Source of the DNA: Plantibacter sp. PA-3-X8
GTDB lineage: Bacteria > Actinomycetota > Actinomycetes > Actinomycetales > Microbacteriaceae
Assembly: GCF_003856975.1 (NCBI RefSeq)
Contig: NZ_CP033107.1
Location: forward strand, 248,001 to 312,000
DNA: 64,000 nucleotides
Direction of reading: 5' to 3'
This document shows positions 5,425 to 27,956 of the stretch, one piece after another (the first letter of the stretch is position 1; every line of letters begins with the position of its first letter). A program made the position numbers and the translations under genes. Below the pieces are notes generated by a model. It had not been told where the DNA came from. It saw nothing but the letters and a program-made list of their open reading frames with translations, and did no database searches.

Positions 5425-8400
5425 TCAAACGGTCTGAGCCACGATGGTGTCTTCCCCATTCCGCGCCAGGCGCTCCGAGCCCAGCCCGAACTCGAGGGCC
5501 TCGTCGAGGCGGGCTCCGATCGCAGCGGTGACTCGCTTGCCACCGAAGATCGCGAGGGTCTCGCGGCGGAGTTCGTCGGGCGAGAGGCCGGCGGACTCCT
5601 CCGCGGCGATCGCCATCGCGTTCGCGATCTCCACCAGGGAGATGTGCTCGATCGCTCGGGCGGCTTCCGCCGAGGACTGACGAGCACCGCGCCACGTGAG
5701 CGGGTCGATCGAGGTCGGCCAGGCGAACGGCTCGTCGGAGCGACCCAGCAACTCGGCCGGGACCTTGTCGAGGATCGACTTCGCCCGCGAACCCACCACC
5801 CGGTCCAGACCGAACGCACCCGCGACCAGCTTCGCCAGGCGCGTCACATGGATCGGTCCCTCGGCCTCCACCGCAGCACGGATCGCGCCCTGCACCGCGA
5901 CGACCGACTGCCGCCCGGGCAAGCGGTCGAGCACTTCGATCCCACCCAGCATGGGTGCGTCCCAGGGCTGGTACTCCGACAGTTCTGGGTGCCGATCGGA
6001 CGCGACCGCCCCCGGGGCTGTCTCGACCGCAGCCACCGAACCGACCTTGCGGTCACGGAACTCCGACAGGGTCTCCAGCGACGCCAGCCGCTCCGACCAC
6101 TCGCGCACGCGGGCGCTGCGAACGGGTGAGGGCGCATCCGAGGCATCGCGAGCGGCGTCCGCATCGTCGGCAACCGACGCATCAGCGGCATCCGACTCCG
6201 CAACACCCGACACCTCCGGCACCGCACTCCCCGCAGCTACCCGCTCAGCCGCAGCCTCAACCGCCGCGACCAACCGGTCCAGCACCTCCTCGCGGTGGTG
6301 CAACCACTCCGGCAACCACACGCGCTCGACGCCCGGCCACCGCATCAGGCCGCTCAGCACCTCGACCGGCAGTCCGTCACGGTCCGCGACCGTCCGACGC
6401 TCACGCCACGACGCCCCATCGAGCAACACCGCCACCAGCGGTCGGTCCGGCTCCGCCTCGGTCGCGATGCTGATGTCCACGCGGAAGTCCGACAAACCAA
6501 CGTCCGTCCGCACCGCGTGCCCGGCGTAGCGGAGCTCGTCGGCGATCTCGTCGCGGTGGCGGTCGACGATCGCCTGACGACGACCGTCCTCGCCGGCCGC
6601 CTCACTCCCCCGCTGCGCCAGCTCCAGGTACGCCTTCAGGTGCTTGATGCCGATCGACGACGTCTGTTCTGCCCGCAGCTCCGACGGGTCGAAGCTCGCG
6701 AACAACACCACCTGCCGCCGCGCCCGCGTCACCGCGACGTTCAACCGCCGCTCACCGCCAGCCCGTGTGAGCGGACCGAAGTTCAACGGGATCACGCCCT
6801 TCTCGTTCGCACTGAACGCGATCGAGAACAGGATCGTGTCGCGCTCGTCGCCCTGCACGTTCTCCAGGTTCTTGACGAAGAGCCCGTCCTGCTCGTCGAG
6901 CGCCAGCGCGATCCGCGGGTCGGCGCTGTCGCGCAGCAGATCCTCGATCAGTGTCCGCTGCTGCGCGTTGAAGGTGATGACCCCGAGCGACGGCGTCTCG
7001 TCCGGCGAGGCCTCGAAGCGGCGTGAGATCTCCTCGACGATCGCCTGCGCCTCCACCGGGTTCGTCCGCAACGACTTGCCACGACCGCCCCGCTCGAATT
7101 GCCCGTCGAGCCGCACGAACGCCAGCCCGTGACCCGCGACCCCACCGTCGCCCGCGCCCGCGAACGGCGCCGGGAACGATGACAACTGGCTGTCGTAGTA
7201 GTGGTGGTTCGAGAACGCGATGAGCGACTCGTCCTGGCTGCGGTAGTGCCACGACAGCCACTTGCTCGGCACCCGCGCCTGCACGCACTCGGAGAGGATC
7301 GACTCCTCGTCCTGCAACACCTCGCTCGTGAAGTCGGCGTCGTCGTCGATCGTCGCGCCGGCCTCGGCGAAGGTCGTCGGCGGCATCTGCTTGCTGTCGC
7401 CCACGACCACGACCGAGCGCGAGCGTCCCATCGCCCCGATCGCGTCGGCGACGCGGATCTGCGACGCCTCGTCGAACACGACGATGTCGAACAGCTCGGC
7501 CGCGGCCGGGAAGAACCGCGCGACCGACTCCGGGCTCGCGAGTGTGCACGGCATGATCTGCGTGATGAGCTCGCCGAAGTTCTCGAGCAGGGCACGGACG
7601 CTCATGCCGCCGCGCTGACGGTCGATCTGCCGACGCAGCCCGCCGACCTGACCGCTCTCCGACTGCGAACTGAACGTCCGCAGCCCGAGCACCGACGCCG
7701 GGATCGCCCGCGGCAGCTCCTCGCGCACGGCCTTCACGCTCGTGGTGAAGCGGGTGACGCTGCGGTTGTGGGCGGTGGCGTCGAAGGCGTCGAGCGTGGT
7801 GGTGCGCTCGCGCTCGTCGATCGACGCCTGCGCGAGGCCCTTCTCGAAGGCGAGCGTCGCGTCCTCGGTCTCGATGCGACCGGCGAGGATCGCAGCGCGG
7901 ACGTCGTCGAGCCCGTGGGTGCGCAGCGGTTCGATGACCCGCACGAGGTCGAGCCAGCGTTCGAGGACGACGGGCTCGGCGGCGTCGAGACGGCGGGAGT
8001 CGCGCGTCGACCACCAGGCCTGCAGGAAGCCCTCGCCACCCGACCACGCCGAGAGACGCTCGGTGCTGACGGACGCGATGCGCAGGAAGTCGCTCCAGGT
8101 GCTCGCGAGCGTCGTCAGTGCCTGGGCCGCCTGCTGCGACGGCTGGGTCGTGGCGTACTGGTCGCGGACGGCGGTGATGAACGCGTCGTCGGGGGTGCCC
8201 GGCAGGCGGAAGCCCTCCGACAGCCAGCGGTACCAGCCGAGCAGTTCGCGCACGGGCTGGGTCGGCTCGACGAGCGGGTTCCAGCGGTCGCCGACGAGCG
8301 GGAGCGCGGTGGATCGGAGCGTGCCGCGCAGCTGGACGAGACGGTCCTGCGCCGCCTTCGCCTCGGTGAGCTGCGGAACGAGCTGCTTCACCTTGAACGA

Positions 8401-11400
8401 GGTCGCGTCGACGGCCAGCACGTCACTCAGCTGGGCGAGCGCGGCCCGCAGCCGCTTCTTGCGACCGAAGAAGCTCGACGCCGCGGCCTGCTCGGCCGCG
8501 TGGCGGGGGCCGGCGATGTCGCGGTCGAGGATGGCGGGCGTGAACGTCGAGCGCCACTCGGCCTGGGCGTCGCGAAGCTGTTCGGCTGCCGCGAGGGCGT
8601 CGTCGAGCCGGACGAAGTCCTCGGGCCGCGTTCCCGCCATGAGCGCGCCGGTCGGCAGGCGCGGTGCGGCGACCGCGGTCGACCAGAGGCCGAGGAGGTC
8701 GGGGCGCGACGCGAGGCGCAACGCGTCCATCGGGAGGCCTGCGTCGAGGGTCGAGGTTAGGGCCGTATCCAGCGCGCGGCCGGCCTGCTGCACGGTCGCG
8801 GCGTCGAGCCCGGGAGCCGACGGGCCGTCGAGGAACGCCCACGGGTGCGTCGTGCTCGGACGCGCGAGGTCGGAACGCTCGGGGAGGTCGCGGAACACCT
8901 GCCGCAGCTGCTCGAACGCCTCGGGCGTGCCGGCGGCGACGAGTTGCTCGGGGATCGCCATCGGGACGAGGTCGTGGTCCATCGCGAGCAGGCGACTCCG
9001 CGCGGAGTAGAGGGAGAAGCCGGCGGCGTTGACCTCGTGGAGGCGGTCGGCATAGCGGGTGAGCGTGCGGAGGCCGGATTCCGACAGCTCGCGGTTGGTG
9101 CTCAGCGCGTCGATGTCGGCCTTGGTGCGGAGGTCGAGGCCGGTCTTGATCTGCGCGCGGACGACGTTGGGCCTGGCGCCCTTGTCGTGGAGGTCGAGCG
9201 AGAACGCGCCGAGTCCGACGTCTTCGAGCCGCTGCTTCACCACGTTGAGCGCCGCACGCTTCTCGGCGACGAACAGGACCTTCTTGCCCTCGGCGAGCGA
9301 CCGGGCGAGGAGGTTGGTGATGGTTTGCGACTTGCCGGTGCCGGGAGGGCCCTCGAGCACGAAGGTGCGGCCGGCTACCGCTTCGGCGACGGCGTCGAGC
9401 TGCGAGGAGTCGGCGGCGACCGGGCAGTCGAGGCCGAGGCGGTCGAGGTCGGTGTCGGTCTGCGCCGGCGTGGGGTCGGCATAGGCCTCGAGCGGCGAGT
9501 TGATGAGGTGGTCGACGAGGCTGTTGGAGGCGAGCGTCTCCCAGTTCTCGTCGAGGTCCTTCCACAGCCGGTACTTCGCGAACTGGAGGATCGACAGCGA
9601 CGCCGTCTCCTCCACGCGGAACGGCAGGCCGGCGTCGAGGATCGCCTGGCGCACGGCGGTGAACGCGGCCGGGAGGTCGATGCCGGAGCCGTCCTCGACG
9701 GGGTTGGCGAGTCCGGGGATCTCGAGGCCGAAACTCAGGCGCAGCTTCTCGAGCAGGCAGTAATTGGGTGTGGAGGAGCCCGACTCGTCGAGGGTGAGGC
9801 GGTAGGAGGAGCCGCGGCTCGTGGTCGTGAGCGTGACGGGCACGAGCACGAGGGGTGAGCGGAGGTCGCGGTCGCCGAAGCGCCAGCTCAGCATGCCGAA
9901 CGCGAGGTAGAGGTTGTTGGCGCCGGTCTCCTCGACGATCGTCTTGGCCTTGTAGGCGAGGGCGCGGAGCTTCGTCGGGTAGGCGGCCTCGGTGACGTCG
10001 ATGAAGGCGCTCTTCTTGTCCTCGAGGAAGTTGATGCGGTCGCTCTCGTCGAGGTCGCGGCCGAAGCGGATGCCGCGCTGCTGGTCGATCGTGGCGACGC
10101 TGTCGGAGGCGACGAGGGTGAGCGGGGTGCCGTGGTTGATGCTGTCCTCGAGGCGGCCGAGCGCGGGGCCGGGGACGGCGAGCTCGAAGCCGGAACGGTC
10201 GGTGTAGTTGATGAGCTTGTTGCGGAGGCTGAGGTCGAGGAGGGCGTTCTTCCAGGTGGAGACGCGCTTCGGGACGTCGGGGCCGTGGCCGGCGGCGGTC
10301 GACTCGGCGGTGGCCGGGGCGTCCTGCGTGAGGGCGCGGGCTTCGGGTGCCTGGTAGAGGGTGACGACGGGTTCGCCCTCGGCGTTGATCCGGCGGCTCG
10401 GCAGCGGGTAGATCTTGCGGAGGCGGGCCTGGACGACGTCGGTGATGCCGATGAAGTCGTCGAGCGAGCCCGCGAGGTGGTCGGTGTGGGGCCGGCGAGA
10501 GGCGTCGGCGAAGGTGGCGGAGCTGCCGGTGAGCATGGTGGTCTCGACGACGCCGATGCGGCCGAGTTCGAGGGAGTTGACGGCTTCGGAGACGTCGGTG
10601 CTGGCGACGACGTCGAGGGTGGTCTGGACGCGCCAGTAGCCGAGGAAGATGTGGTCTTTGAGGAGCCAGAGGAGGGGGTGGATGCCGATGGCTTCGAGGA
10701 CGGACGCGAGCAGGACGGTGGTGTCGAGGCAGGTACCGAGGTGGCTGGTGAGGACTTCCTCGGGGGTGCGGACCTTCTGGCCGCTCTGGCCCCAGCTGGC
10801 CGGCGGTTCGGCGTAGCGGATGTCGCGGGCGCGGGCGGCGTCCCAGACGGCGGCGACGATGGCATCGATGCGGGCGGGGTCGTCGAGTTGATAGGTGGCG
10901 AGGGAGCTGTTGCCGGTCTGCTTGTCGAGGAGGTCGGAGACCTCGAGCATGAGTTCGCTGACGACGAGCGCGTTGGGCTGCACGTGGGCGGCGAGGAGTT
11001 CGAGGCCGAGCTGCACGGGTGCGGCGATCCACTGGTTGGACGCGAGCACGGTGACGGGGCTATCGACGGTGCCGAGCTGGGTACCTGCGGCGTCGCGCAC
11101 GGTGACGCGGATGACGCCGGGACGCTGTTCTTCGACGAGGAGCATGCGGCGTGGGTCGAGGAGGACCTCGGGGCTGCGGAGGAGGGTGGTGCGGTCTTCG
11201 CCGAGGTCGGCGAGGAGCACCTTGGTGTCGGTGAGAGGGCCGTCGGCGGTGACGACGTCGATCTCGACGGACGCCGCCCGGCGTTCCCCGCCGTGGTTCT
11301 CGAGGACGATCTCGTCGATCACCGCGATGCTGCAGTGCGCCATCGCGTAGCTGAGCGTCGGCGTCGCGCTGACGCGGATGGAGACGGAGGTGGGGCCTGC

Positions 11401-11667
11401 GGGAGAGGAGCCTGCTGCAGACAAGGAGCCTGCGGCGCTCTGCTCGTCGTCCGCTCCGCGATCGCTGGCGTCTCCTGTCAACGCAACCCTCTCGGTCCCT
11501 GAGTCTGTCGAAGGGCCCATCTCGTCTTCGCTCGCCGTCTTCGTCAACACACCCGTCTCGGTCTCTGACCCCACTCCTTCGGTCCCTGAGCCTGTCGAAG
11601 GTCGCAACACCCGCCCCTTCAACTCCCCCACAGCCGCAGCCTGCTCCGCAGCCCCAACGCTCTCCAA
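5425..11667 (-). CDS. Hhe-like defence protein: DUF4011, SF1 helicase, Vsr-like nuclease domain, DUF3320
   Basis: About 2080 residues. In order: an N-terminal DUF4011-type region (WKNALLDLSLRNKLINYT near residue 470), Walker A GPPGTGKSQT near 772, helicase motif II DEASQ near 1395 with GDSKQMPPTTF, late SF1 motifs (VQGDERDTILFSIAFS, LNVAVTRARRQV), a PD-(D/E)XK-type nuclease region near 1710 (MTES_1575/Vsr-like: DVGLSDFRVDIS ... VAVLLDGASW), and a DUF3320-like end near 1920. This is the architecture described as the Hhe antiphage family; the assignment is by recognition, not by search. The TTG at 11667 immediately follows the stop of the HEPN gene, so the two are probably translationally coupled. 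The first 90 or so residues are low-complexity and contain two translated copies of the genome's dispersed repeat, so the true start could be internal. Confidence 0.82.
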   Translation of the reverse strand: MESVGAAEQAAAVGELKGRVLRPSTGSGTEGVGSETETGVLTKTASEDEMGPSTDSGTERVALTGDASDRGADDEQSAAGSLSAAGSSPAGPTSVSIRVSATPTLSYAMAHCSIAVIDEIVLENHGGERRAASVEIDVVTADGPLTDTKVLLADLGEDRTTLLRSPEVLLDPRRMLLVEEQRPGVIRVTVRDAAGTQLGTVDSPVTVLASNQWIAAPVQLGLELLAAHVQPNALVVSELMLEVSDLLDKQTGNSSLATYQLDDPARIDAIVAAVWDAARARDIRYAEPPASWGQSGQKVRTPEEVLTSHLGTCLDTTVLLASVLEAIGIHPLLWLLKDHIFLGYWRVQTTLDVVASTDVSEAVNSLELGRIGVVETTMLTGSSATFADASRRPHTDHLAGSLDDFIGITDVVQARLRKIYPLPSRRINAEGEPVVTLYQAPEARALTQDAPATAESTAAGHGPDVPKRVSTWKNALLDLSLRNKLINYTDRSGFELAVPGPALGRLEDSINHGTPLTLVASDSVATIDQQRGIRFGRDLDESDRINFLEDKKSAFIDVTEAAYPTKLRALAYKAKTIVEETGANNLYLAFGMLSWRFGDRDLRSPLVLVPVTLTTTSRGSSYRLTLDESGSSTPNYCLLEKLRLSFGLEIPGLANPVEDGSGIDLPAAFTAVRQAILDAGLPFRVEETASLSILQFAKYRLWKDLDENWETLASNSLVDHLINSPLEAYADPTPAQTDTDLDRLGLDCPVAADSSQLDAVAEAVAGRTFVLEGPPGTGKSQTITNLLARSLAEGKKVLFVAEKRAALNVVKQRLEDVGLGAFSLDLHDKGARPNVVRAQIKTGLDLRTKADIDALSTNRELSESGLRTLTRYADRLHEVNAAGFSLYSARSRLLAMDHDLVPMAIPEQLVAAGTPEAFEQLRQVFRDLPERSDLARPSTTHPWAFLDGPSAPGLDAATVQQAGRALDTALTSTLDAGLPMDALRLASRPDLLGLWSTAVAAPRLPTGALMAGTRPEDFVRLDDALAAAEQLRDAQAEWRSTFTPAILDRDIAGPRHAAEQAAASSFFGRKKRLRAALAQLSDVLAVDATSFKVKQLVPQLTEAKAAQDRLVQLRGTLRSTALPLVGDRWNPLVEPTQPVRELLGWYRWLSEGFRLPGTPDDAFITAVRDQYATTQPSQQAAQALTTLASTWSDFLRIASVSTERLSAWSGGEGFLQAWWSTRDSRRLDAAEPVVLERWLDLVRVIEPLRTHGLDDVRAAILAGRIETEDATLAFEKGLAQASIDERERTTTLDAFDATAHNRSVTRFTTSVKAVREELPRAIPASVLGLRTFSSQSESGQVGGLRRQIDRQRGGMSVRALLENFGELITQIMPCTLASPESVARFFPAAAELFDIVVFDEASQIRVADAIGAMGRSRSVVVVGDSKQMPPTTFAEAGATIDDDADFTSEVLQDEESILSECVQARVPSKWLSWHYRSQDESLIAFSNHHYYDSQLSSFPAPFAGAGDGGVAGHGLAFVRLDGQFERGGRGKSLRTNPVEAQAIVEEISRRFEASPDETPSLGVITFNAQQRTLIEDLLRDSADPRIALALDEQDGLFVKNLENVQGDERDTILFSIAFSANEKGVIPLNFGPLTRAGGERRLNVAVTRARRQVVLFASFDPSELRAEQTSSIGIKHLKAYLELAQRGSEAAGEDGRRQAIVDRHRDEIADELRYAGHAVRTDVGLSDFRVDISIATEAEPDRPLVAVLLDGASWRERRTVADRDGLPVEVLSGLMRWPGVERVWLPEWLHHREEVLDRLVAAVEAAAERVAAGSAVPEVSGVAESDAADASVADDADAARDASDAPSPVRSARVREWSERLASLETLSEFRDRKVGSVAAVETAPGAVASDRHPELSEYQPWDAPMLGGIEVLDRLPGRQSVVAVQGAIRAAVEAEGPIHVTRLAKLVAGAFGLDRVVGSRAKSILDKVPAELLGRSDEPFAWPTSIDPLTWRGARQSSAEAARAIEHISLVEIANAMAIAAEESAGLSPDELRRETLAIFGGKRVTAAIGARLDEALEFGLGSERLARNGEDTIVAQTV
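11493..11602. repeat. two dispersed-repeat copies inside the helicase reading frame
   Basis: Two copies of the GGTCCCTGAGYCTGTCGAAGG repeat (about 11493-11514 and 11580-11601) lie in the 5' part of the giant helicase ORF. On the coding strand both read in the same frame and give the peptide PSTxSGTE. They do not interrupt the frame. Confidence 0.85.
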
Positions 11668-12048
11668 CTACAACTGCATCGAATCCAACGCCCGATAGGC
11701 CGACTGCTCCGTGAACCCTGCGTTGTGGGCCCAGGCGTTCCGAACCTCCCGAAGCTCACTCGCATACCCGCGAGCGCTCCGCGACAGCACGCGGTCGAAC
11801 GGGTACCCCAGCTCCCCGATCCGCTCGGTCATCGCCCGAAGCATGAGCGGCACGTCGGTAACCGAGTACCGCCCGTGGCCACCCCCGGCTGCACGGTCCT
11901 TCTCCTCAAGGATCCGCGTCCACTCGACCCCGGGCACGACCTCAGCGAAGGCGCCTTCCACAAGCGGGCGAAGGCCCGACCCAAGCAGCTCGAGCCCCTG
12001 GCCGACGGCGGAGTTGAGTTCAGAAGCGTCCACGTGCGGGCCTTTCAT
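11668..12048 (-). CDS. Swt1-family HEPN domain protein
   Basis: 126 residues from ATG 12048 (MKGPHVDASELNSAVGQGLELLG). A GTG at 12033 with AAAGG 7 nt upstream is the better-supported alternative by ribosome site. The frame is open further upstream to 12150. The body matches Swt1-type HEPN domains: a helical N-terminal half with PLVEGAF, a middle SVTDVPLMLRAM, and a C-terminal REVRNAWAHN. This last contains the HEPN R-x4-H motif (R and H of RNAWAH), associated with metal-independent RNase activity. The stop TAG directly abuts the TTG start of the Hhe-like helicase, so the two form an operon. Likely an effector or partner of that defence protein (inference). Confidence 0.75.
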   Translation of the reverse strand: MKGPHVDASELNSAVGQGLELLGSGLRPLVEGAFAEVVPGVEWTRILEEKDRAAGGGHGRYSVTDVPLMLRAMTERIGELGYPFDRVLSRSARGYASELREVRNAWAHNAGFTEQSAYRALDSMQL

Positions 12049-12321
12049 CGGGGTGGTGCGGGCTGAGCGGTGCGACGGACGTACCTCTGACCACAACTGC
12101 GAGATTGCAAGGCCGCGGCCGTAACTCGCATTGAATCTCGCGCCCGACACCAGGCTGGCCGGCTGTCGTCAACTAGGCACCCCTAGCGCGGCCTCAAAAC
12201 TACACGAGCCGACGGCGAGCACCATGACTACAAATGACCGCCACCTTCTTTCGAAATTACAAACGGCAGCACGAGGATGCCGCAGCTTCGACTCTGGGCG
12301 TCCTACGCCAACTAGATGCGT

Positions 12322-13764
12322 TCATAGCTGAGCGGAGACAGCCATCCCGAGCGATGTGGAGATGGGCGTTCGGTTCAACACGATGCCAGCGTCTACGGGG
12401 TCGACCATCGGGGTCGCCAACAGCGGCGCGGTGGCATGGCGGACCCTGTTACGCTTCGCCGGAATATCGTCGTCTCCAGCTTCAAAGTAGAGCTTCGCTT
12501 CCGAAGAAGTCATGACCAATAGACGCTCATCCCGTTCTGCATTCATCTCGGTGCAAGTTCGTAAAACGAACTGCTCCCCCAGGGATGACCTGACGGACTC
12601 CGCAACCGCTTTAGCCAGGAGTGGCGGTACAGCGTTACCGATCTGTCGATGGGCATGCCAGTTTGTGCCATGAAAGCGGAACCAGTCCGGAAATGAGTGC
12701 AGTCGGGCGGCCTCGCGAACCGTGATGACACGTGGCTCCGAAGGGTGCAGCGGGCGCGCGGCGCTGAATGAGCCACGTTCACTTCCTGTTCCCGCACGTA
12801 ACGTTCGGGACGGTCGATGTTCGTCGAGCCTCCACAACCGCGAGACCTGATCCGTACCTCCCTGCGGCACCAGCGCGAAGCGTCTGGCCGACTCAGCCGA
12901 GTGCGCAGTCACTAGATAGCCGCTTAGTACACCATCGGTTTCGCCTAGACGAGCAGGCGCCATGTCCGTGAGAGTTTGGAGATAAGGCGTCGTCAGACTC
13001 TCTGAATACCGAGCCGACTGCTCTCTATTCATCTCTAGCAACTCGCCATCAGATCGCGTCCGTCCACTTAGCGATGGAAGCCCAATGAGAGCGTCGGCGA
13101 CCGTAACCACTTCGGACCCAGTCTTCGCAATTGGAACCAGTTCATAACCAGGAGCAACACCGACTATGAATACGCGCTTCCGTCGCTGAGGAACACCATA
13201 TTCAGTAGCATCCAAGGGCTGCGAGTGGTCCCGAAGAGTATATCCAGCGGCGACAAAACGACGAATGGCGTCATCAACGAGCGACGCGAACTGCGGTGCC
13301 AGGATTCCCGGCACGTTCTCCATCACGAAGGCGCGAGGCGATAGGCCCTCAACGAGACGCACGAACTCACTAACAAGCTCGTTCCGATCATCGTCGACAT
13401 CCTGCTTTCCCATCGACGAGAACCCTTGACACGATGGGCCACCCACAACCACATCGATGACCCCGTCCCACTCTCCTTCAGGATTGTGCGCCTTCCACCC
13501 CTCCTGCGCTGCTGCAAGGAGATCGAGCGCCTCCACCCGCCTGACATCCCGGCAGATCACGGGTGCGTTGGGGAAGTTGTAAGCGTGGGTTGCCGCATGG
13601 ACTGGGTCATACTCAACAGCGGCAACGACGTCGAAGCCCGCCATCTCGAAGCCAAGGCTGAGCCCGCCAGCCCCAGCGAAGAGGTCTACGACCACGGGGC
13701 GACGGGTACGTTCGATCGGGGCATTCACCAGGTAACGATCGCACATCATCGGGGCTGCCCACAA
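12322..13764 (-). CDS. DNA (cytosine-5)-methyltransferase
   Basis: 480 residues from GTG 13764; ATGs at 13749 and 13746 are close alternatives. Conserved C5-methyltransferase motifs are present in order: I FAGAGGLSLGF (near 29), IV VGGPSCQGFS with catalytic Cys112, VI FVMENVPGIL (Glu149), VIII QRRKRVFIVG, IX RTLRAGTGSERG and X IGNAVPPLLA. The residue before the catalytic Cys is Ser rather than the common Pro. The target recognition region between VIII and IX is about 100 residues and gives no hint of the target site. A roughly 90-residue C-terminal tail after motif X is extra. It is divergent from the GHKL ATPase operon, as in restriction-modification loci with MutL/MORC-like ATPases. Lower GC than flanking genes. 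Confidence 0.9.
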   Translation of the reverse strand: MWAAPMMCDRYLVNAPIERTRRPVVVDLFAGAGGLSLGFEMAGFDVVAAVEYDPVHAATHAYNFPNAPVICRDVRRVEALDLLAAAQEGWKAHNPEGEWDGVIDVVVGGPSCQGFSSMGKQDVDDDRNELVSEFVRLVEGLSPRAFVMENVPGILAPQFASLVDDAIRRFVAAGYTLRDHSQPLDATEYGVPQRRKRVFIVGVAPGYELVPIAKTGSEVVTVADALIGLPSLSGRTRSDGELLEMNREQSARYSESLTTPYLQTLTDMAPARLGETDGVLSGYLVTAHSAESARRFALVPQGGTDQVSRLWRLDEHRPSRTLRAGTGSERGSFSAARPLHPSEPRVITVREAARLHSFPDWFRFHGTNWHAHRQIGNAVPPLLAKAVAESVRSSLGEQFVLRTCTEMNAERDERLLVMTSSEAKLYFEAGDDDIPAKRNRVRHATAPLLATPMVDPVDAGIVLNRTPISTSLGMAVSAQL

Positions 13765-13815
13765 CTAGACTCGCATGGAGCTCGAAGACGAGCACGAAAT
13801 TGGGGGGAACCGAAG

Positions 13816-15216
13816 ATGACAGATGTACTCGAGTTGATAGACGGCAGTCCAACCAAGAGGTTCTTCATTGAAATTCTAACGCGTGATATCTCAATCACGG
13901 CAGCGATCATGGACCTCGTCGACAATTCGATAGACAGCGCCAACGAAATGCGCCCCGATGGAAGGCTCGACGGCCTGAGCGTCGCGGTTGTGGCGTCAGC
14001 TAGCGAATTCTCGATAGAGGACAATTGCGCCGGTATCGGTGCGGCGAATGCTCGGGAATATGTCTTTCGAATCGGGCGCCCCGACGGCATCGATCCATCT
14101 CCCGAGTCGATCGGTCAGTTCGGCGTTGGCATGAAGCGTGCGTTATTCAAGATGGGCTCGGCCTTCGTTGTCGAATCTACAACGATGGAAGATTGCTTTA
14201 CCGTGGACGTGAACACCAATACTTGGATGAGCGACGAGCACACCTGGACCTTGCCAATGACCATTCATGGAACGTTCGACCAGCAACCGGGGACGACCAT
14301 CATTGTCGATGGCCTCTACCCGCAGGTCAGGGATGCCTTCTCGTCACAGACCTTTCTCGACGAACTGGCTGAAGAACTCCGCTCGAGGCATCGTCTCGCC
14401 ATGGGCAACGGTCTTCGAATCACCCTCAACGGGAGTCCCCTCACTGCTGCAGACTCCATGGTCGCAACGAGTGATCTCTTGCGCCCCGCGAAGAGCTCAT
14501 TTGTAGTCGCGACACCCGGAGCGGGAGAGCTTTCGGTCCGAATCGTAGTAGGCGTAGCCCCTTCGGGATCCAACGGCGTTGACGAAGACGCGGAACCGGA
14601 GGAACAGTCCCGTCCAGCCGCGGACGCCGGTTGGCTTGTATTCGGTAACGGACGTCTGTTGCTCGCCAACGATAAGACTCGACTCACCGGCTGGGGCTCT
14701 GGGCGCACCAAAATCCCTCAGTACCACAACCAGTACGCACGCTTCCGCGGATTCGTTTACATGACCGCCAGCAACGCAGCCGCCATTCCGTGGAACACGA
14801 TGAAGACGACCGTAGATCCCGACAGCCCGATCTGGCACCAGGTATTGGAACGGATGATTTCGTCGGCTCGTGGGGTGATCGATCTACTGAATCAGGCAAA
14901 GGGTGAACGCCGGCTTGCCACAGATGACATGGTCACGCCTACATTGGACGCCATTCGTTCTGCAATACCCGTGAACGCAAGCTCTCTGCTAGAAGTCGAA
15001 TTCTCTATGTCCATCGAGGATCTGCGGAGCGGCACTTCTGTCGGCGCAGTTTATCCTGCAGCGAATCCCGAACTGGCCGAGGCTTGGAAGAAGATCCAGT
15101 ACACCGTTTTGGTCCGAAACTTCGATGAACTCGCCTCTGCTCTGGGAATGAACAACGCCGCCGAAATCGGACGCCAGTCCTTCGATGCATATCATGCGGC
15201 GAACGTGGAGTTGTAG
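13816..15216 (+). CDS. GHKL-type (MutL/MORC-like) ATPase
   Basis: 466 residues from ATG 13816 with a G-rich ribosome site. Bergerat-fold ATP-binding motifs are clear: N-box IMDLVDNSID (31-40), G1 IEDNCAGIG (67-75), G2 IGQFGVGMKRALFKMG (99-114). The middle part (VFGNGRLLLANDKTRLTGWG) resembles the transducer-like domain of MORC/MutL-related proteins. The last about 120 residues are of unknown type. GHKL ATPases of this kind are known in restriction-modification and defence neighbourhoods with C5 methyltransferases, Vsr and PD-(D/E)XK nucleases. Here it heads an operon: the stop is 2 nt before the M78 peptidase start. I infer it is a DNA-sensing switch in a defence system. Confidence 0.82.
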   Translation: MTDVLELIDGSPTKRFFIEILTRDISITAAIMDLVDNSIDSANEMRPDGRLDGLSVAVVASASEFSIEDNCAGIGAANAREYVFRIGRPDGIDPSPESIGQFGVGMKRALFKMGSAFVVESTTMEDCFTVDVNTNTWMSDEHTWTLPMTIHGTFDQQPGTTIIVDGLYPQVRDAFSSQTFLDELAEELRSRHRLAMGNGLRITLNGSPLTAADSMVATSDLLRPAKSSFVVATPGAGELSVRIVVGVAPSGSNGVDEDAEPEEQSRPAADAGWLVFGNGRLLLANDKTRLTGWGSGRTKIPQYHNQYARFRGFVYMTASNAAAIPWNTMKTTVDPDSPIWHQVLERMISSARGVIDLLNQAKGERRLATDDMVTPTLDAIRSAIPVNASSLLEVEFSMSIEDLRSGTSVGAVYPAANPELAEAWKKIQYTVLVRNFDELASALGMNNAAEIGRQSFDAYHAANVEL

Positions 15217-15218
15217 CG

Positions 15219-15779
15219 ATGTCCGCTAAAACTAATGAGCACCAGAAGCGAAAGCAATCGCTGGACAGGAGTGATCGGAACTTGACTCCTCGCCAGGCCG
15301 CGCTCGACGTCCTCAGCGATTTTTGGGCAAACGGCAGCGGCACAGTCGACTTCCCGGTGGACCCGGTTTTGATCGCCCAGAGGATGGGTGCAAGAGTGCT
15401 CCGAGCGACTTTGGAGGACGATGTTTCCGGCCTATTAGTCAAGGAACCGCAGGACGAGGCAGCGACCATCTACCTCAATGCCGGTGATGCCGAAAAACGC
15501 CAGCGGTTCACCTGTGCACATGAGCTCGGGCACCTTCGCAGGCGTGGCATCACCAAGGGTGAGCGTATTGGGTATGTGGACAGCCGCGATCTGGAGGCTC
15601 GGACGGGGCGAAACCCGGAGGAGGTTTGGGCGAATCAGTTTGCAGCCGAACTGCTCATGCCTGCCGCTGCGGTGCGAGCCCTCTGGGCACAGGCGGAGAG
15701 CCCGTCGCGGTTGGCTCGTGTTTTCGGTGTCTCCCCAGCTGCGGTTGACGTTCGCCTGACAAGCCTTGGGCTCGCATGA
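15219..15779 (+). CDS. ImmA/IrrE-family (M78) metallopeptidase
   Basis: 186 residues. The zinc protease motif HELGH sits in FTCAHELGHLRRRG, followed downstream by VWANQFAAELLMP, where the Glu is a typical third ligand. Together they define the M78 (ImmA/IrrE) family, whose members cleave repressors or anti-sigma factors in mobile elements and toxin-antitoxin-like loci. A short basic N-terminus (KQSLDRSDRN) precedes a helical region; no separate HTH domain is seen, so any DNA-binding partner must be elsewhere. Start ATG 15219 follows the GHKL stop by 2 nt, and the stop overlaps the next start as ATGA. It is therefore co-translated with the GHKL ATPase and the membrane protein. Confidence 0.85.
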   Translation: MSAKTNEHQKRKQSLDRSDRNLTPRQAALDVLSDFWANGSGTVDFPVDPVLIAQRMGARVLRATLEDDVSGLLVKEPQDEAATIYLNAGDAEKRQRFTCAHELGHLRRRGITKGERIGYVDSRDLEARTGRNPEEVWANQFAAELLMPAAAVRALWAQAESPSRLARVFGVSPAAVDVRLTSLGLA

Positions 15780-16288
15780 GCGAGCCAGAGGCTTCGATAG
15801 ATGTCGACATCTTGCGCGAACCGGAGGACCAGGAAGAAGGGCCTGAGGACGCAACCCAGGTCGACGAGGGAGCCTTCGCGCAGGCCGCTGGGATTCAGGA
15901 TGCCCAGCCGATTACAGATCTGAGGCCTCGATGGCGTCGACGACCACGAGCAACTGTGGAATTGCAGCCAGCCGAACGAGAAGCAAGGAAGGCTACGCTC
16001 AAGCTTCGCGCACGCGAGCAGGACGTTGGCTTGAAACGGCTAATGGCCTGGGTGGCTATCTCGGCGGTTATTTTGCAGCTATTGGTGGCCGATGCTTTCC
16101 TGGCTCATTACGTTCTCCTAGCTACACCCAATCCGTCAGACACTGTGCTGATTGCCTGGCTCTCAGCTTCCGTCGTGGAGGTAATTGGTATTGTCGCTAT
16201 AGTTGCGCGCAATTTGTTCCCAGATCGTACGAAAAGAAAATCGGATCAGGCACGCCCGAAGCAGAAGAAGAGAAGAAGGAGTGGCTAG
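15776..16288 (+). CDS. two-TM membrane protein, third gene of the GHKL operon
   Basis: 170 residues. A very acidic N-terminus (EPEDQEEGPEDATQVDE) is followed by a basic stretch (RPRWRRRPRA). Two membrane segments follow (LMAWVAISAVILQLLVADAFLA, about 99-120; IAWLSASVVEVIGIVAIVARNLF, about 132-154), then a Lys/Arg-rich tail. The start ATG overlaps the M78 stop by 4 nt. No family recognised. The size, two helices and position suggest a membrane effector or sensor for the upstream ATPase and peptidase, but this is inference only. Confidence 0.65.
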   Translation: MSEPEASIDVDILREPEDQEEGPEDATQVDEGAFAQAAGIQDAQPITDLRPRWRRRPRATVELQPAEREARKATLKLRAREQDVGLKRLMAWVAISAVILQLLVADAFLAHYVLLATPNPSDTVLIAWLSASVVEVIGIVAIVARNLFPDRTKRKSDQARPKQKKRRRSG

Positions 16289-16629
16289 CGGGAGTTATTC
16301 CTGAAGCTCCCGATCCGCTCGGCAGCACGAATCTGCGTCCTCCGCCGACGGCCTGTCGGAGGACGACAATCGGCCTTCCAAAACTCATGCGGTACCGACT
16401 GAAGTTCTGACAGCCGTCACCGTACGGTGGGCGAAACGTTGTCCGAGACCCTGATCAGAACAGACGGGGCGACCGTCCCTGCACCGACAGGACGGCGTTC
16501 GCCGGCAAAGTAGTTGCCGGCCCGTTGACCTCAAATGGCCTCCATTCTGGACGGCGCGAGTGGGAGCTGCCCGATGCCCGGTTCGCGGCCGCCCCCGCTT
16601 GTTGCAGCCATTTCGGCCTTGCGGATTAG
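16289..16629. other. gene-poor stretch within the defence island
   Basis: No open frame here has coding character. It lies between the two-TM protein gene and a methyltransferase remnant and probably contains decayed sequence from the lost 5' part of that gene. No convincing promoter or terminator was found. Confidence 0.4.
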
Positions 16630-16926
16630 TTGCTCGCCGTCTGCGTGAAGAAGCACAAGTCGGGCTCAGGTGACGTGATGGGGCGACTGCGAGTCGACCG
16701 TCCTTCGATGACAATCCGCACGGAGTTCTTCAAGCCGGAAAAGGGTCGCTACCTGCACCCGTCTGCCGACCGTGAGATCACCCACTACGAGGCCGCCGTG
16801 CTCCAGGGGTTCGCTGACGACCACAAGTTCGTGGGATCGAAGACCGCCATCGCTCGGCAGATCGGAAACGCCGTGCCCATTCCTCTCGGCCAAGCAGTCG
16901 CGTCTGTGCTTGCGGATCACCTCTGA
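16630..16926 (+). pseudogene. 3' remnant of a second DNA (cytosine-5)-methyltransferase
   Basis: About 90 residues that correspond only to the C-terminal part of a C5 methyltransferase: motif IX-like RPSMTIRTEFFKPEKGRYLHP region (16702-16764), HYEAAVLQGF, and motif X RQIGNAVPIPLGQAVA. The catalytic PCQ and the AdoMet-binding motifs are absent, and nothing upstream continues the gene in any frame. The sequence differs from the end of the intact methyltransferase at 12322-13764, so it is not a duplicate. It is convergent with vsr, the usual partner of a dcm-type gene. Confidence 0.7.
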
Positions 16927-16941
16927 TCCGCCCGAGTCACT

Positions 16942-17403
16942 TCACCGCCCTTTGGTAGCTCGTCGAGTACTGCCGGAATGTTCAGCCCGCCTGTTCCGGA
17001 CAGTGGCCACGATTTCATCTGCCACCAGCTGGGCCGATTCGTGTTCCCAGAAGCGGAGCACCGTCCAATCACGTGACTTCAGTACTGCTGTGGTTTCACC
17101 GTCCCGCTCCCGATTGCGTGCCACCTTCTCGGCCCAGAAGCGACCATTCGCAACGGGCGCGGTGTAATGGACCGGACATCCGTGCCAGTAGCAGCCGTCT
17201 ATGAAAACAGCGACGCGAGCACGGGTGAACAATAGGTCAGCTGTTCGTCGGAGATCCGGTTCCGGCCGCGCGCTGACTCGGTATCGCAGGCCTTGGGCGT
17301 GGACCATCCGTCGCACCGCGATCTCGGGCTTCGTGTCACGCCCCCGATTGCTCCGCATGCTCCGGCGTGTGCCCGCGGTGGTTGCCCAACTCTCCGCCTC
17401 CAT
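16942..17403 (-). CDS. vsr: Vsr-type very short patch repair endonuclease
   Basis: 153 residues, the usual Vsr length. Motifs include RSNRGRDTKPEIAVRR, the catalytic region DLLFTRARVAVFIDGCYWHGCP with the zinc-binding Cys/His, the FWAEKVARNRERD segment and the LRFWEHE end. Vsr nicks 5' of the T in T:G mismatches arising from deamination of 5-methylcytosine, protecting genomes with C5 methyltransferases. The adjacent methyltransferase is a remnant, so it presumably now serves the intact enzyme at 12322-13764, if anything. It shares direction with the upstream GIY-YIG/DUF2075 gene (81 nt gap) and may be transcribed with it. Confidence 0.88.
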   Translation of the reverse strand: MEAESWATTAGTRRSMRSNRGRDTKPEIAVRRMVHAQGLRYRVSARPEPDLRRTADLLFTRARVAVFIDGCYWHGCPVHYTAPVANGRFWAEKVARNRERDGETTAVLKSRDWTVLRFWEHESAQLVADEIVATVRNRRAEHSGSTRRATKGR

Positions 17404-17484: not shown

Positions 17485-19284
17485 TCACGGTGGCACCAGA
17501 TAGCCGGAGATGACGCGCGCCAGATGGGCCCTTAGCGGAGGATCGCTCACGTAGACGTACGTACCGCGTATACCGCGCGTCAGCAGCACCGTGTAGATGT
17601 TCGTGACGTAGCGCAGCAGATCGTTGTCCGAGTAGGTCAGGCCGAGAGCCGGGTTGTTCTCCTTGCCCTTCTTGTCGAAGTAGGACTCTCGGTGGAAGAC
17701 GATACGGTTCGTCTCAGCGTCGTACCGCAGGTCTGGTCCGATGATCACTCCTGCGTAGTTCAGGTCGTATCCCTGAACGGTGTGGATCGAGCCGACTTCC
17801 TCGAGGGCCTTCGATGACGCGATCCAGTCGGTCTGCGTTCCGTTCCAGCGCATGGAGACGTCACCGATCACGATGTCGAACGCCTCCTTGTCGTTCTTCG
17901 TCTTCCACTCCCAGGCGTAGCCCGCGACCATTCGCGCGAGTCCGAACTCCGCGTCCCGCTTGCGGATCTCCTCTCGCATCTCAGCGAGATCGTCGAACAA
18001 CCTGAGGTCGTACTCGCCGAAGTCCGGCGCCAACTCGATCTCCACCTGGTTTCCGAGGATGTTCCTGACGTAGTCCACGTAACCCGACCCCGCGCGCACA
18101 CGCATCTGCGAGGCGAGGCCCGCGTATCGATCAGCAGACTGCGCTCTGGCGACCAGCTGGTGCAGGTGCTCAGCGGGAACGTCCGCGGGACGGACACTCT
18201 GTCCGGCGTCGAGCAGGAAGATCTGGTGCGCGCTCTTCTCGATGATCCAGTCGAGTTGCGTCTTCGACTTGTCGTCCGCACCGAACAACTTGGTAGTGAT
18301 TTCGCGGAACTGTTTGTTCTGTGCCGCGGATGGTTGGTTCGCACGCCGATTGAGCCGGTGCGCCTCATCGACGACAAGGAGGTCGAATTCCTCGTCGGAT
18401 GCCCCGACATCGAAAGCGGTCATCACCATGTCCGGGTGCAGGCCAGGCGTCTTGCGGAACACCTCCTTGATCGAAGCGCGCAATGACTGTTGCGGGACGA
18501 CGATCCCGACCTTGAAACCCTGCAGCAGCTCGCGGTGACGCTCGGTGAAGAACGACGAGAAGAGCGTGTCATCGTCAGGTTCGTCGAGGGCCGCTGATCC
18601 TCGGATGTCAGCGATCAGTTTCAGCAAGTAGATCGCGACGACCGTCTTGCCGGTGCCGGGATCGCCTTGAACGACGGTCGTACTTCGTTGCGACCGGGAG
18701 AGGTCTTCGAAGAGCCCCTCGAGCACGCCTTCGACAGCGATGGTCTGATCAGGTGTGAGCGCTTTGAACGGCGACAGCTTGAAGAGGTCACTGTTCTCGA
18801 TCTCGGGAAGGGATCGAGTGAAGACACCATCCGCCCTGAGTCGATCGAAGACGTCCTCGAAGGACTCGCGGTAGCGGTCGCGATCGAAATAGTTGGCGTC
18901 GACGATGCCGTCATTGCGATTGAGCACCTGGTAGGCACCGTCCCCGGCGAGCATGCGGATCAGGAAGGATTCGAGATCAAGACAAACCGACTTGTTGAAT
19001 GTCTCATCCACGATCACCCTAAGGCCGGTGAGATGTTCCTTCGCCGTGGACTCGAAGTGCTGGCGCATACGCGCGGCGACGTTGAGCGACTCACCGACAT
19101 AGACATCACGCTCGGCGGCGGCTCCGACCCGCCTCCGTCGCGAGGCCGAAGGAACCTTGGACGATCCGACCGGCCCATCCAACAGATACACGACAGGCCA
19201 GTCGCTGAACCGCCGATCACCCGCCGCCCAGAGCTTTACCTCGGTCGACGTGAAGTCGAGACTCGTGATCTCAAAGTTTGTCAT
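17485..19284 (-). CDS. GIY-YIG nuclease domain fused to DUF2075 helicase-like ATPase
   Basis: 599 residues from ATG 19284 (MTNFEITSLDF). The first about 110 residues form a GIY-YIG-type nuclease (VVYLLDG ... RDVYVGESLNVAARMRQHF). The remainder is a DUF2075 P-loop ATPase: Walker A GDPGTGKTVV near 207, motif II LLVVDEAHRLNRR, DAGQSVRP, and a late GSIHTVQGYDL / LLTRGIRGTYVYV pair as in SF1-type helicases. The start overlaps the end of the pyrophosphohydrolase gene by 14 bp, so they are co-translated. DUF2075 proteins with GIY-YIG domains recur in defence islands, and nucleic acid restriction is the likely role (inference). The in-frame extension up to 19368 lacks conservation and was dropped. 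Confidence 0.82.
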   Translation of the reverse strand: MTNFEITSLDFTSTEVKLWAAGDRRFSDWPVVYLLDGPVGSSKVPSASRRRRVGAAAERDVYVGESLNVAARMRQHFESTAKEHLTGLRVIVDETFNKSVCLDLESFLIRMLAGDGAYQVLNRNDGIVDANYFDRDRYRESFEDVFDRLRADGVFTRSLPEIENSDLFKLSPFKALTPDQTIAVEGVLEGLFEDLSRSQRSTTVVQGDPGTGKTVVAIYLLKLIADIRGSAALDEPDDDTLFSSFFTERHRELLQGFKVGIVVPQQSLRASIKEVFRKTPGLHPDMVMTAFDVGASDEEFDLLVVDEAHRLNRRANQPSAAQNKQFREITTKLFGADDKSKTQLDWIIEKSAHQIFLLDAGQSVRPADVPAEHLHQLVARAQSADRYAGLASQMRVRAGSGYVDYVRNILGNQVEIELAPDFGEYDLRLFDDLAEMREEIRKRDAEFGLARMVAGYAWEWKTKNDKEAFDIVIGDVSMRWNGTQTDWIASSKALEEVGSIHTVQGYDLNYAGVIIGPDLRYDAETNRIVFHRESYFDKKGKENNPALGLTYSDNDLLRYVTNIYTVLLTRGIRGTYVYVSDPPLRAHLARVISGYLVPP

Positions 19285-19591
19285 ACTTCGCAGACCGCCC
19301 CCGCGCCTTCTCCACCGGGTATTTCTCCCGCGTACGTGCGAGCTTGTCGCGGACGATGGTCTCCGCATCGAGACCGAGCCGATCCGTCAACAACAAGCAG
19401 TAGGTGAGGACATCGGCCAATTCGTCGCGCACGCGATCGTCGTCGGCATCGGGTTCCCACTGGAAGCACTCGAGGAGCTCGGCTGCCTCGATGGAGATGC
19501 TCTTCGCAAGGTTCTCCGGCGTATGGAACTGCGCCCAGTCACGCTCGGCCACGAAAACGGCGAGCTCGTCGCGCAGTGAGGGGTCCGCCAT
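19271..19591 (-). CDS. MazG-like nucleotide pyrophosphohydrolase
   Basis: 106 residues, the length of single-domain MazG-like (RS21-C6/dCTPase-type) enzymes that hydrolyse (d)NTPs to monophosphates. The metal-binding pattern is complete: SIEAAELLECFQW (ExxE region) and ELADVLTYCLLL (ExxD), followed by KYPVEKARG. It is the first gene of a minus-strand unit with the GIY-YIG/DUF2075 gene, overlapping it by 14 bp. Start ATG at 19591. In this context it might adjust nucleotide pools or remove modified phage nucleotides, which is speculative. Confidence 0.85.
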   Translation of the reverse strand: MADPSLRDELAVFVAERDWAQFHTPENLAKSISIEAAELLECFQWEPDADDDRVRDELADVLTYCLLLTDRLGLDAETIVRDKLARTREKYPVEKARGRSAKYDKL

Positions 19592-19870
19592 GGCATGAAT
19601 CTACCAGTGACAATCAGCCAACCACCGGCCCCTGCTCCAGCGACAGTATCCCACAGGCTGCTGAAGCAGCCGAGCCTGAACAGCTACCTAGCAATTTCGC
19701 GAGCCTCCATGCATAGGTGGAACCATGACCACCAGCCACTCGACATCTTTTCACGTCGCCCAGAGCCGCGAGGCTGTCGCCTCATGCAGCGGATCAACGC
19801 CATAATCCATCAGGTGTGGTTCACTATCTCCGAAGACCAATTACGACCTGAAGGGCTTGGAGCACACGAC

Positions 19871-21634
19871 ATGACTGCTGGAGCGTACGACGCCGATCCT
19901 GTTTTCCAAGCGACTCCGCAGCATGTTGACTACCTACTCCAACGGATTCATGCTGGATCGCTCGCGATACCCGACTTTCAGCGGGACTTCACGTGGGAAC
20001 CAAGACGAACCGCAACACTACTACGCTCCATGATGTCCCGCTTTCCGGCTGGAACATTCTTGTTCTGGGCTAGAGGCTCCGACAACGAGATGTTCGGCTG
20101 GCGTGAAGTCGAAGGCGCTCCCGAGAAGACCACCCCACCGCAAGAGCTGGTTCTGGACGGGCAACAACGCCTTACATCACTTTACAGGGCACTCAATGGC
20201 ATTGGTGACGAGAGATTCTACCTGTCCATCCCCGATTTTCTTACGTTCCCCTCGCCTACACACCCCCAGGGCGCACTGAAGGATCCACAGGACGTCGACT
20301 TTGAGAAAGCGATTTTCTGGCATACATCGGACAGCAAAGACGAGAAGGCTCTTACTGAACGATCAGATCGTATCTCAAAACACATCTTGGCAGTCTCTGA
20401 ACACAAGCAGTTCGATGAGTGGCTCGATGACTATGCCGATCATCACGCAAGCACGATGGACAGAAAGACGACGAAGTCGCTACTGCGGGCATTCCGCGAT
20501 GCCTACTTGTCTCCCCTTCGGTCATATGGCTTCCCGGTCGTGACCCTTCCAAGCAACACGCGCATCGAAGCTGTTGCGACAGTATTCGAAACCCTGAACA
20601 GCACCGGAAAGCCACTTGGCCCTTTCGAGCTTCTAACTGCGCGCTATTATCCAGAGAGTGTTCACCTACGCGACTTGTGGGATGCAGCAATTGCGGATTA
20701 CGAGATCCTGCGCGAGTTCTCCATCGACGCCTATAGCATCCTTCAGGCCATTACGTTGAGAGCGCACAATTCCGCACAGCGCAGTGATGTCCTTCGGAAA
20801 CTCACAGCGTCGGACGTGAAGGCTCACTGGGAGCCCGTGGTTCGAGGGTTCGCCAGAGTGCTCGAACTCGTGCAGGACGAGTGCGGCGTTGTCTCACCGA
20901 AACTACTTCCGTACTCCATGGTCCTGGTCCCTCTGGCTGCAGTTTGGGATGAAGTATCGAAGATCAAGGGGCCAGATCAAATCAACGTCCTGGGCCGCCT
21001 GAAGCAGTTCTTTTGGTGCACCGTATTTTCAACCAATTACGACCAAGGCGCAAACAGCCAGGCAGGCGCAGACTATGCCAAGTTGAAGCACTGGGTATTC
21101 GACTCAACTCAAGATGCGCCCGAAGCCGTAACTGACTTTGAGCTATCGAGTGGCGCTATCAGGTCTGCCACCACCCGAAGGAAAGCGCTTTACGCAGGCA
21201 TTCTGGCTCTCACGGTCGTTTCAGGCGCGCGTGATTTTCATTCAGGCAAGAAGCTGACCGCCGCTAAGGTTCGCGCCGATAAGGTCGATTCTCATCATAT
21301 CTTCCCTAAGGCCTTCCTGAACGGCAAGTTGGACGAAGAGGGGTTGCCCTTCAACTCCGAACTTGCTCTCAACCGCGCTCTGATTGACCCGATTACCAAT
21401 AAGGCGATCGGCTCTAAGGCTCCGAGTGCGTATATCGGATCTCTTCGCGATGCCGCGGGAGAACAAGAGATTGCAGAGATCCTCGGTTCCCATTTGATCG
21501 ACGCGGATGAAGATCACGATCCGTTCCTGACCGACGACTACTCGGCTTTCATCGACCGCAGACTGGATGACGTGGTTGCCGCCATCGAGTTGGTAACGAA
21601 GTCAGAAGTTGCTGGATCTGTAGCAGGCGCGTAG
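19871..21634 (+). CDS. GmrSD-like DUF262/DUF1524 restriction protein
   Basis: 587 residues from ATG 19871 (GGAG 8 nt upstream); the frame is open to 19595 but that stretch has no coding character. DUF262 N-terminal part: IPDFQRDFTWEP and the hallmark DGQQRLTSL near residue 95, a ParB/sulfiredoxin-like nucleotide-hydrolysing fold. C-terminal part: DUF1524 HNH-type nuclease with DSHHIFPKAFL near 473 and a trailing Asn region. Fused GmrS+GmrD proteins act as NTP-dependent type IV restriction enzymes against modified phage DNA. Here both halves are in one chain. Clearly lower GC than the flanks. No partner gene nearby is needed. Confidence 0.85.
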   Translation: MTAGAYDADPVFQATPQHVDYLLQRIHAGSLAIPDFQRDFTWEPRRTATLLRSMMSRFPAGTFLFWARGSDNEMFGWREVEGAPEKTTPPQELVLDGQQRLTSLYRALNGIGDERFYLSIPDFLTFPSPTHPQGALKDPQDVDFEKAIFWHTSDSKDEKALTERSDRISKHILAVSEHKQFDEWLDDYADHHASTMDRKTTKSLLRAFRDAYLSPLRSYGFPVVTLPSNTRIEAVATVFETLNSTGKPLGPFELLTARYYPESVHLRDLWDAAIADYEILREFSIDAYSILQAITLRAHNSAQRSDVLRKLTASDVKAHWEPVVRGFARVLELVQDECGVVSPKLLPYSMVLVPLAAVWDEVSKIKGPDQINVLGRLKQFFWCTVFSTNYDQGANSQAGADYAKLKHWVFDSTQDAPEAVTDFELSSGAIRSATTRRKALYAGILALTVVSGARDFHSGKKLTAAKVRADKVDSHHIFPKAFLNGKLDEEGLPFNSELALNRALIDPITNKAIGSKAPSAYIGSLRDAAGEQEIAEILGSHLIDADEDHDPFLTDDYSAFIDRRLDDVVAAIELVTKSEVAGSVAGA

Positions 21635-21873
21635 CTGGAGACGATCCGGCGGGCAGCCGTTGGGCTCGGGCTACAGCGCCCCGAACAATTGGCGATGACG
21701 CAGGCCTCCATCGCAGCCCTACTAGCGGGGCATAATCTGCAGGGATCCTTCGGAGATTCGCGTGAGCGCGCGCAGCAGAGCTTGGTGGCGCATAGGAGTC
21801 CAGTTCCGCATCCGTCTATCGAGGTCACCGAATTAGGGATCGGACATGCCGTGGATCCCGGCGAGCGCACGGA

Positions 21874-27641: not shown

Positions 27642-27956
27642 TCGCTTCTCCCTCCGAAGAGGTTCCCCTCTCGGTGATAAGGATCCCATCGTTGAGGTGA
27701 CCCCGCTTAGATCGGCTTCACCGTGAATGGTAGGCCCTTGATCCAGAGCGCGGCGCGGGAACGGGACGCCCCAATCCGCTTCCAGACCAGGGGATAACCC
27801 CCTCTTCGAAGTTGGTCGCGTGCCCTACATTGTGACTGATGTCCCCCACAGTGCGGACATCAGACTGAACACACAGGGGGCCTCACGGCGTGAACCTGAC
27901 CTCGCCGCCTGCCCGCTGAACCTCCGCCGGTGCATGCCCTCTCCGAAAGCACCTCG
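27642..27956. other. intergenic region with inverted repeat
   Basis: No gene is seen. It contains the upstream region of the DUF2510-TM2 gene, and marks the switch back to high-GC core sequence. Confidence 0.4.
27836..27863. promoter_or_regulatory. inverted repeat upstream of DUF2510-TM2 gene
   Basis: CTGATGTCC and GGACATCAG form a perfect 9-bp inverted repeat with a 10-bp spacer, about 95 bp before the start at 27957. It may be an operator or a hairpin in the leader. Confidence 0.35.

Follow-up and report, generated by a model that had tools for sequence, protein, structure and literature searches.

A methylase–GHKL ATPase cassette of Plantibacter carries a putative RosmerTA-type toxin–antitoxin pair in the slot where relatives carry Methyltransf_35

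The RosmerTA pair of Gordonia phage Kita (RmrA D25/RmrT D5) is described in the available part of the original report as a toxin–antitoxin (TA) system whose protease is the antitoxin and neutralises the toxin partially (Ernits et al., 2023; PMC10440598). According to the same part, the toxin stops translation, transcription and replication, the membrane is depolarised and permeabilised, and E. coli is protected against Bas54 and Bas59 and not against other BASEL phages; an N-terminal helix-turn-helix (HTH) on RmrA is frequent but not required, and the Kita pair is presented as a stand-alone defence with no trigger named. A separate body of work concerns the MORC and paraMORC GHKL ATPases of restriction-modification systems, which lie beside C5 methylases and Vsr and whose partners, in the accessible sections of the survey, are helicases, nucleases, methylases, Vsr and TIR; in paraMORC4 the TIR domain is either fused to the ATPase or encoded next to it (Iyer et al., 2008; PMC2292703). 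One GHKL–nuclease fusion formerly annotated as paraMORC3, VcSduA, was shown to protect against phage (available text of PMC12137116). What is known of GHKL ATPases next to methylases comes mostly from the genes around them. We analysed 64,000 nucleotides of the Plantibacter sp. PA-3-X8 genome (NZ_CP033107.1, positions 248,001 to 312,000 of the forward strand; hereafter the window), in which a single cassette joins a C5 methylase and a GHKL ATPase to homologs of both Kita proteins.

The initial annotation had described an operon of a GHKL ATPase, an M78 (ImmA/IrrE) peptidase and a protein with two transmembrane segments (2TM) beside a C5 methylase, and had proposed it as a candidate new defence system. 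All four genes were confirmed, ATPase beside methylase included, and so was their tight coupling: 2 nucleotides separate the ATPase gene from the M78 gene, which in turn overlaps the 2TM gene by ATGA (Table 1). The methylase starts at TTG, with an ATG possible a few codons further in, while the ATPase open reading frame (ORF) is open upstream as far as 13426, with the ATG given in Table 1 as its likely start. A promoter scan found none (1.3 expected), and among seven terminator-like sites (3.7 expected) none was convincingly positioned. In a Pfam scan, nuclease domains and HTH repressors were absent from all four genes, and type II restriction-modification was ruled out because the operon holds no nuclease. 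The earlier statement that no nuclease follows was thus right for the operon and wrong for the island, where genes for Vsr and a GmrSD_N protein are present.

Table 1. Coordinates of the cassette, its four genes and the features to its right (window positions).
Feature	Position	Strand	Basis and remarks
Inserted cassette, four genes	12062..16415	.	Unmatched by blastn in six same-genus genomes (G001–G006)
C5 cytosine DNA methyltransferase	12322..13764	-	480 amino acids; PF00145 3.5e-59; divergent from ATPase gene
GHKL ATPase, MORC/paraMORC-like type	13816..15216	+	466 amino acids; HATPase_c_3 4.8e-13
RmrA-like M78 (ImmA/IrrE) zinc protease, putative antitoxin	15219..15779	+	PF06114 6.5e-20; HELGH
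RmrT-like small 2TM protein, putative membrane-depolarising toxin	15776..16288	+	Kita gp33 homology; hydropathy; family alignment
C-terminal remnant of second C5 methylase	16630..16926	+	98 amino acids; PF00145 2.4e-12, positions 258–321 of 324 only
Vsr mismatch endonuclease	16942..17403	-	TIGR00632 3e-33; outside cassette; present in G001 too
GmrSD_N protein	19595..21634		Same island

By homology, the M78–2TM pair of the window is a relative of the validated RosmerTA toxin–antitoxin and not a new effector. The M78 protein matched Kita gp32 (41% over 165 aligned positions) and the 2TM protein matched Kita gp33 (38% over 76 aligned positions; pairwise E 1e-12), and a 2TM relative (L099) matched 17 Gordonia phage records. 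Gene order is likewise the same, since in Kita gp33 directly follows the metalloprotease gp32 with a 4-nucleotide overlap; the Kita pair differs in being phage-borne, flanked by tail and integrase genes and not part of an ATPase/methylase operon. As the whole Kita record holds one M78 match only, inside gp32 (178 amino acids), and gp33 comes next, the published pair should be gp32/gp33. Several features of RosmerTA were found in the window: the M78 gene adjoins the putative toxin gene, assigned as such by homology, both products are homologous to the validated member, and the M78 protein carries HELGH, an HExxH motif that was present in 27/27 top M78 matches checked (P0153–P0179, of 120 listed). 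The N-terminal HTH was not found, and PF06114 (residues 53–181) was the only family above cut-off in the window M78; the Kita protein is similarly short. Pfam assigned the 2TM protein to no family and it had no match in plasmids; two hydrophobic segments (residues ~86–117 and ~122–149; Kyte–Doolittle) occupy its C-terminal half. A SLATT identity was rejected, the NCBIfam match being sub-threshold (16 of 35 bits) and superseded by the gp33 homology. Of the earlier proposal, the pairing of a protease with a membrane effector stood, and the novelty of the effector did not. That the protease releases or cleaves the effector was not established; the M78 protein of RosmerTA is an antitoxin, and the sign of the effect may be the reverse. 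Elsewhere, an M78 gene followed by one for a small, apparently membrane-bound protein (judged by eye) was seen in Burkholderia phage Carl1, two P2-like phages and a Helicobacter prophage (L123–L126), a possible wider RosmerTA-like family, and in Escherichia phage vB_EcoM-705R4 an M78 match lies at the record end.

The ATPase combines a GHKL domain, with intact nucleotide motifs (DLVDNS, DNCAG, GQFGVGMK), and a second, transducer-like domain, as expected of the MORC/paraMORC type. The top Protein Data Bank (PDB) matches of its AlphaFold2 model (predicted local distance difference test, pLDDT, 82) were Hsp90/TRAP1, with the SMCHD1 ATPase module included (TMq 0.41–0.48), and Foldseek alignments with Hsp90 spanned most of the model at a high root-mean-square deviation. 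MutL, MORC and Hsp90 GHKL ATPases are ATP-closed clamps, and in MutL and Hsp90 the general-base position of the N-box holds a catalytic Glu. Among 132 ATPases compared here, this position held Asp in 119 and Glu in 9, and the pattern was unmatched in 4.

To the right of the ATPase, relatives of this protein usually encode something else. We collected 89 ATPase loci (L007–L095) from species-representative genomes and viral contigs, namely 80 of 127 genome relatives and 9/9 viral relatives; genes were called by a simple longest-ORF script, and partners were recognised with a profile built from seven partner proteins. A partner of ~295–365 amino acids lay directly downstream of the ATPase in 83 loci. 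Of the remaining six, two had the partner nearby and an ATPase ORF that was shortened or split, one had the partner and an uncalled ATPase ORF, and three were without it, two of these at most 1 kb from the end of the examined DNA. All five partners scanned against Pfam belonged to PF20553, Methyltransf_35, and none of five scanned matched in PADLOC; the AlphaFold2 model of the partner (pLDDT 88) had Trm1 as its best PDB match (TMq 0.44), a weak Rossmann methyltransferase likeness. Within up to 10 kb of DNA on each side, a C5 methylase was present in 68 and Vsr in 30 of the 88 loci. The window methylase scored best against methylases of actinobacterial loci of this kind (48%; loci preselected for the ATPase), and the ATPase had three matches in plasmids. 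Searches of whole genomes (398, 397, 396 and 186 genomes; overlapping samples, the second repeating many of the first) added three loci with ATPase, Methyltransf_35 and methylase together, one of them in the window's own family. In the relatives that these searches found, from G080, G348, G392, G502, G617 and G812, Methyltransf_35 adjoined the ATPase (G348 and G392 being L036 and L035 again and not additional loci; weaker ATPase matches in G068, G077, G154 and G167 were left out). The methylase–GHKL–Methyltransf_35 arrangement is thus widespread in bacteria and archaea, and we regard it as a candidate uncharacterised defence system. It shares with the window the same ATPase family (~32–45% identity), a related C5 methylase and a partner slot right after the ATPase, and differs in filling that slot with the weakly Rossmann-methyltransferase-like protein in place of M78–2TM.

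No other M78-type ATPase locus appeared in the whole-genome searches, the window M78 had no match in the 89 loci (single-sequence phmmer, E 1e-3), and the window's own genome, a single contig of 4,082,089 bases, gave no PF20553 match. Consistent absence of the M78 or 2TM gene from homologous loci, named in the initial annotation as refuting its proposal, is therefore the rule across the wide ATPase family (0/89 with M78, 83/89 with Methyltransf_35), but not among the closest relatives. In a tree of the 132 ATPases (quick method, midpoint root, several long branches), all 22 whose contig also carries M78 and/or 2TM fell in one 26-row clade (SH-aLRT 98) of Microbacteriaceae, and Methyltransf_35 is known for no member of it. 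In its sister clade of 11 rows the partner is known in one case, that of Agromyces luteolus (L007, identical to P0029), and is Methyltransf_35. Contigs of equal size were taken as one contig, in a comparison of 43 ATPases and 31 M78 proteins, from 120 listed of each, with the full set of 28 2TM proteins: ten contigs carried all three proteins, 19 carried ATPase and M78, 13 carried ATPase and 2TM, and 18 of the 28 2TM proteins were linked to ATPase and/or M78. The presence of M78/2TM with 22/26 clade ATPases, set against Methyltransf_35 in the wider family, argues for partner exchange and not chance adjacency, and one Microbacteriaceae clade apparently swapped Methyltransf_35 for M78–2TM, once.

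That the genes associate beyond chance is further indicated by consecutive locus tags in Curtobacterium oceanosedimentum (NS263_04065, ATPase; NS263_04070, M78; NS263_04075, 2TM) and by the co-divergence of the three proteins. Over an ATPase identity range of 48–84%, correlations were r 0.85 for GHKL–M78 (n = 19), 0.93 for GHKL–2TM (n = 13) and 0.89 for M78–2TM (n = 15), with 0/5000 permutations as strong for each pair, in a test that retains shared ancestry and alone cannot prove interaction. This is not a categorically new system, as each half is already known; our literature search met neither their combination nor the exchange of partners, and none of the listed titles or abstract openings described a GHKL protein with M78/2TM or named PF20553, subscription papers being largely outside the search.

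We read the locus as a methylase/GHKL ATPase module that exchanged Methyltransf_35 for a RosmerTA pair and whose ATPase/methylase side controls toxin release in abortive defence, an interpretation that we hold with even confidence for and against. The methylase would mark host DNA, and the ATPase dimer would form a DNA-gripping clamp that responds when DNA is foreign or carries the wrong marks, or when the methylase is interfered with. The ATPase would then relieve the control of RmrT (2TM) by RmrA (M78), and freed RmrT would depolarise the membrane and halt the infected cell. The protease may neutralise, as it does in RosmerTA, or serve as an activator, by analogy with the activating protease CapP. 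A defence role for the locus, already suggested in the initial annotation, is plausible. More tentatively, the cassette could be a methylation-gated toxin–antitoxin in which the methylase/GHKL clamp reads self-marks on DNA and unlocks a pore-forming RosmerTA toxin instead of a nuclease. If so, a restriction-type sensor would be wired through a protease antitoxin to a membrane-killing arm. Stable linkage in one cassette provides a concrete hypothesis for the control of both RosmerTA and the ATPase, and the natural exchange of Methyltransf_35 and M78–2TM beside the same ATPase makes it testable, since the ATPase signal must suit both partners.

Several observations weigh against the main interpretation. 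ATP hydrolysis is uncertain with Asp replacing the usual Glu. Ten of the 28 2TM proteins were unlinked (nine on contigs <7.5 kb), as were four of the 26 clade ATPases; linkage was deduced from equal-sized contigs, four of the shared ones being chromosome-sized, where adjacency is not implied, and methylase linkage within the M78-type clade was seen in the window only, the sole member with DNA compared. The best PADLOC profile of the window M78 was capP (1e-25) and not RmrA (1.3e-11); the Kita M78 protein likewise scored best with capP (6.7e-26), so this profile separates no roles. In Kita, according to the available part of the report, neutralisation by the M78 protein is partial, complex prediction gave nothing reliable and the range of protection is narrow (PMC10440598). 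Finally, the M78–2TM pair occurs without the ATPase in four other Microbacteriaceae loci (~3.2 kb each examined), in Gordonia phages and in IMG/VR viral contigs, and can therefore probably work alone.

These stand-alone pairs also favour a guard or addiction role, in which an autonomous RosmerTA unit hitched to the methylase–ATPase operon and keeps the cassette stable, or is triggered by loss or silencing of the genes upstream, with no direct signalling. Mobile cassettes commonly carry TA genes, which fits the same idea. We nevertheless consider it possible but rather doubtful: it would leave the ATPase partnerless, Methyltransf_35 being found neither in its own genome nor in any clade member for which partners are known, and co-divergence over so wide a range of ATPase identity, together with the 2-nucleotide and ATGA coupling, suggests more than carriage.

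The four genes came in as a single block, as the initial annotation had supposed from their AT-richness. By blastn (E 1e-10, alignments >150 bases), the cassette was covered by no alignment with the corresponding stretches of any of six same-genus genomes (G001–G006; in G004 and G005 the stretch stops 4–5 kb past the insertion site), and the ATPase and 2TM proteins were not found anywhere in these genomes. The gene to the left (window ~5438–12060; HEPN_Swt1 plus DUF4011 helicase) is shared with all six at ~92–94.5% identity, apart from one 484-base piece at 89%. To the right, alignment with G001 restarts at window 16415, inside a 372-amino-acid ORF beside Vsr that is a C5 methylase by register and sequence and corresponds to the window's methylase remnant just right of the cassette. 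Joint absence from the six genomes and resumption of the alignment within this older ORF establish entry as one block; most simply, the cassette would have replaced part of an older methylase–Vsr locus. The six genomes differ in the ORFs that follow to the right of this helicase gene, and the site (window 12.06–21.9 kb) is probably a defence hotspot. At the cassette edges we found short and imperfect repeats only. Guanine-plus-cytosine (GC) content per kb was 57–61% over 12–17 kb and 55–61% across 12–22 kb, against 65–74% over 0–12 kb and mostly 66–75% beyond 22 kb.

This history bears on restriction with a detached nuclease, in which the methylase and ATPase would use Vsr or the GmrSD-like protein and M78–2TM would be a side module. 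Vsr does recur in relatives' loci, as noted above, and a GmrSD_N gene lies nearby; however, Vsr belongs to the part held in common with G001, outside the cassette, and the GmrSD-like stretch (~19615–21889) is, compared with G001, an insertion of its own, so neither nuclease arrived with the four genes and we think this arrangement improbable. A regulatory module, with M78 as an antirepressor-type protease (as ImmA/CapP), 2TM as its anchor or sequestering partner and transcription as the output instead of membrane damage, would suit the capP match but is similarly unlikely, given the equal capP preference of the Kita protein, the lack of an HTH repressor among the four genes and the homology of 2TM to a demonstrated membrane toxin.

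The locus was also compared with other described systems. MORC/paraMORC restriction-modification loci resemble it in placing a GHKL-type ATPase beside a C5 methylase and Vsr, but neither M78/2TM nor Methyltransf_35 is among the partners named in the accessible sections of the survey (PMC2292703). Membership in MZA was rejected: the window ATPase, beside a methylase, is weakly similar to MzaB (38 bits against a curated cut-off of 850), and no other Mza-like gene was present among ten proteins scanned (11.67–21.63 kb). A CBASS CapH–CapP assignment was rejected as well, since the single-domain M78 protease matches the capP profile but neither a CD-NTase nor a CapH-type HTH was found among the same ten proteins.

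Other features were noted elsewhere in the window. At 5425–12150 (minus strand), the HEPN_Swt1 and DUF4011/DUF3320 helicase frames are split by an in-frame TAG at 11668–11670, whereas the region forms a single ORF of ~2200 amino acids in 6/6 same-genus genomes; its helicase part matched PADLOC PDC-S37 (1e-279). A Schlafen-group helicase gene at 17485–19591 (minus strand), with a weak, sub-threshold GIY-YIG match, overlaps a MazG-like gene, and this stretch is present in G001 and G003 too. Two more low-GC patches were seen at 25–28 kb and 38–40 kb, the first of which contains a gene (26316–27689, minus strand) for an ApeA_NTD1 protein (1.7e-11) with HEPN_Apea slightly under cut-off.

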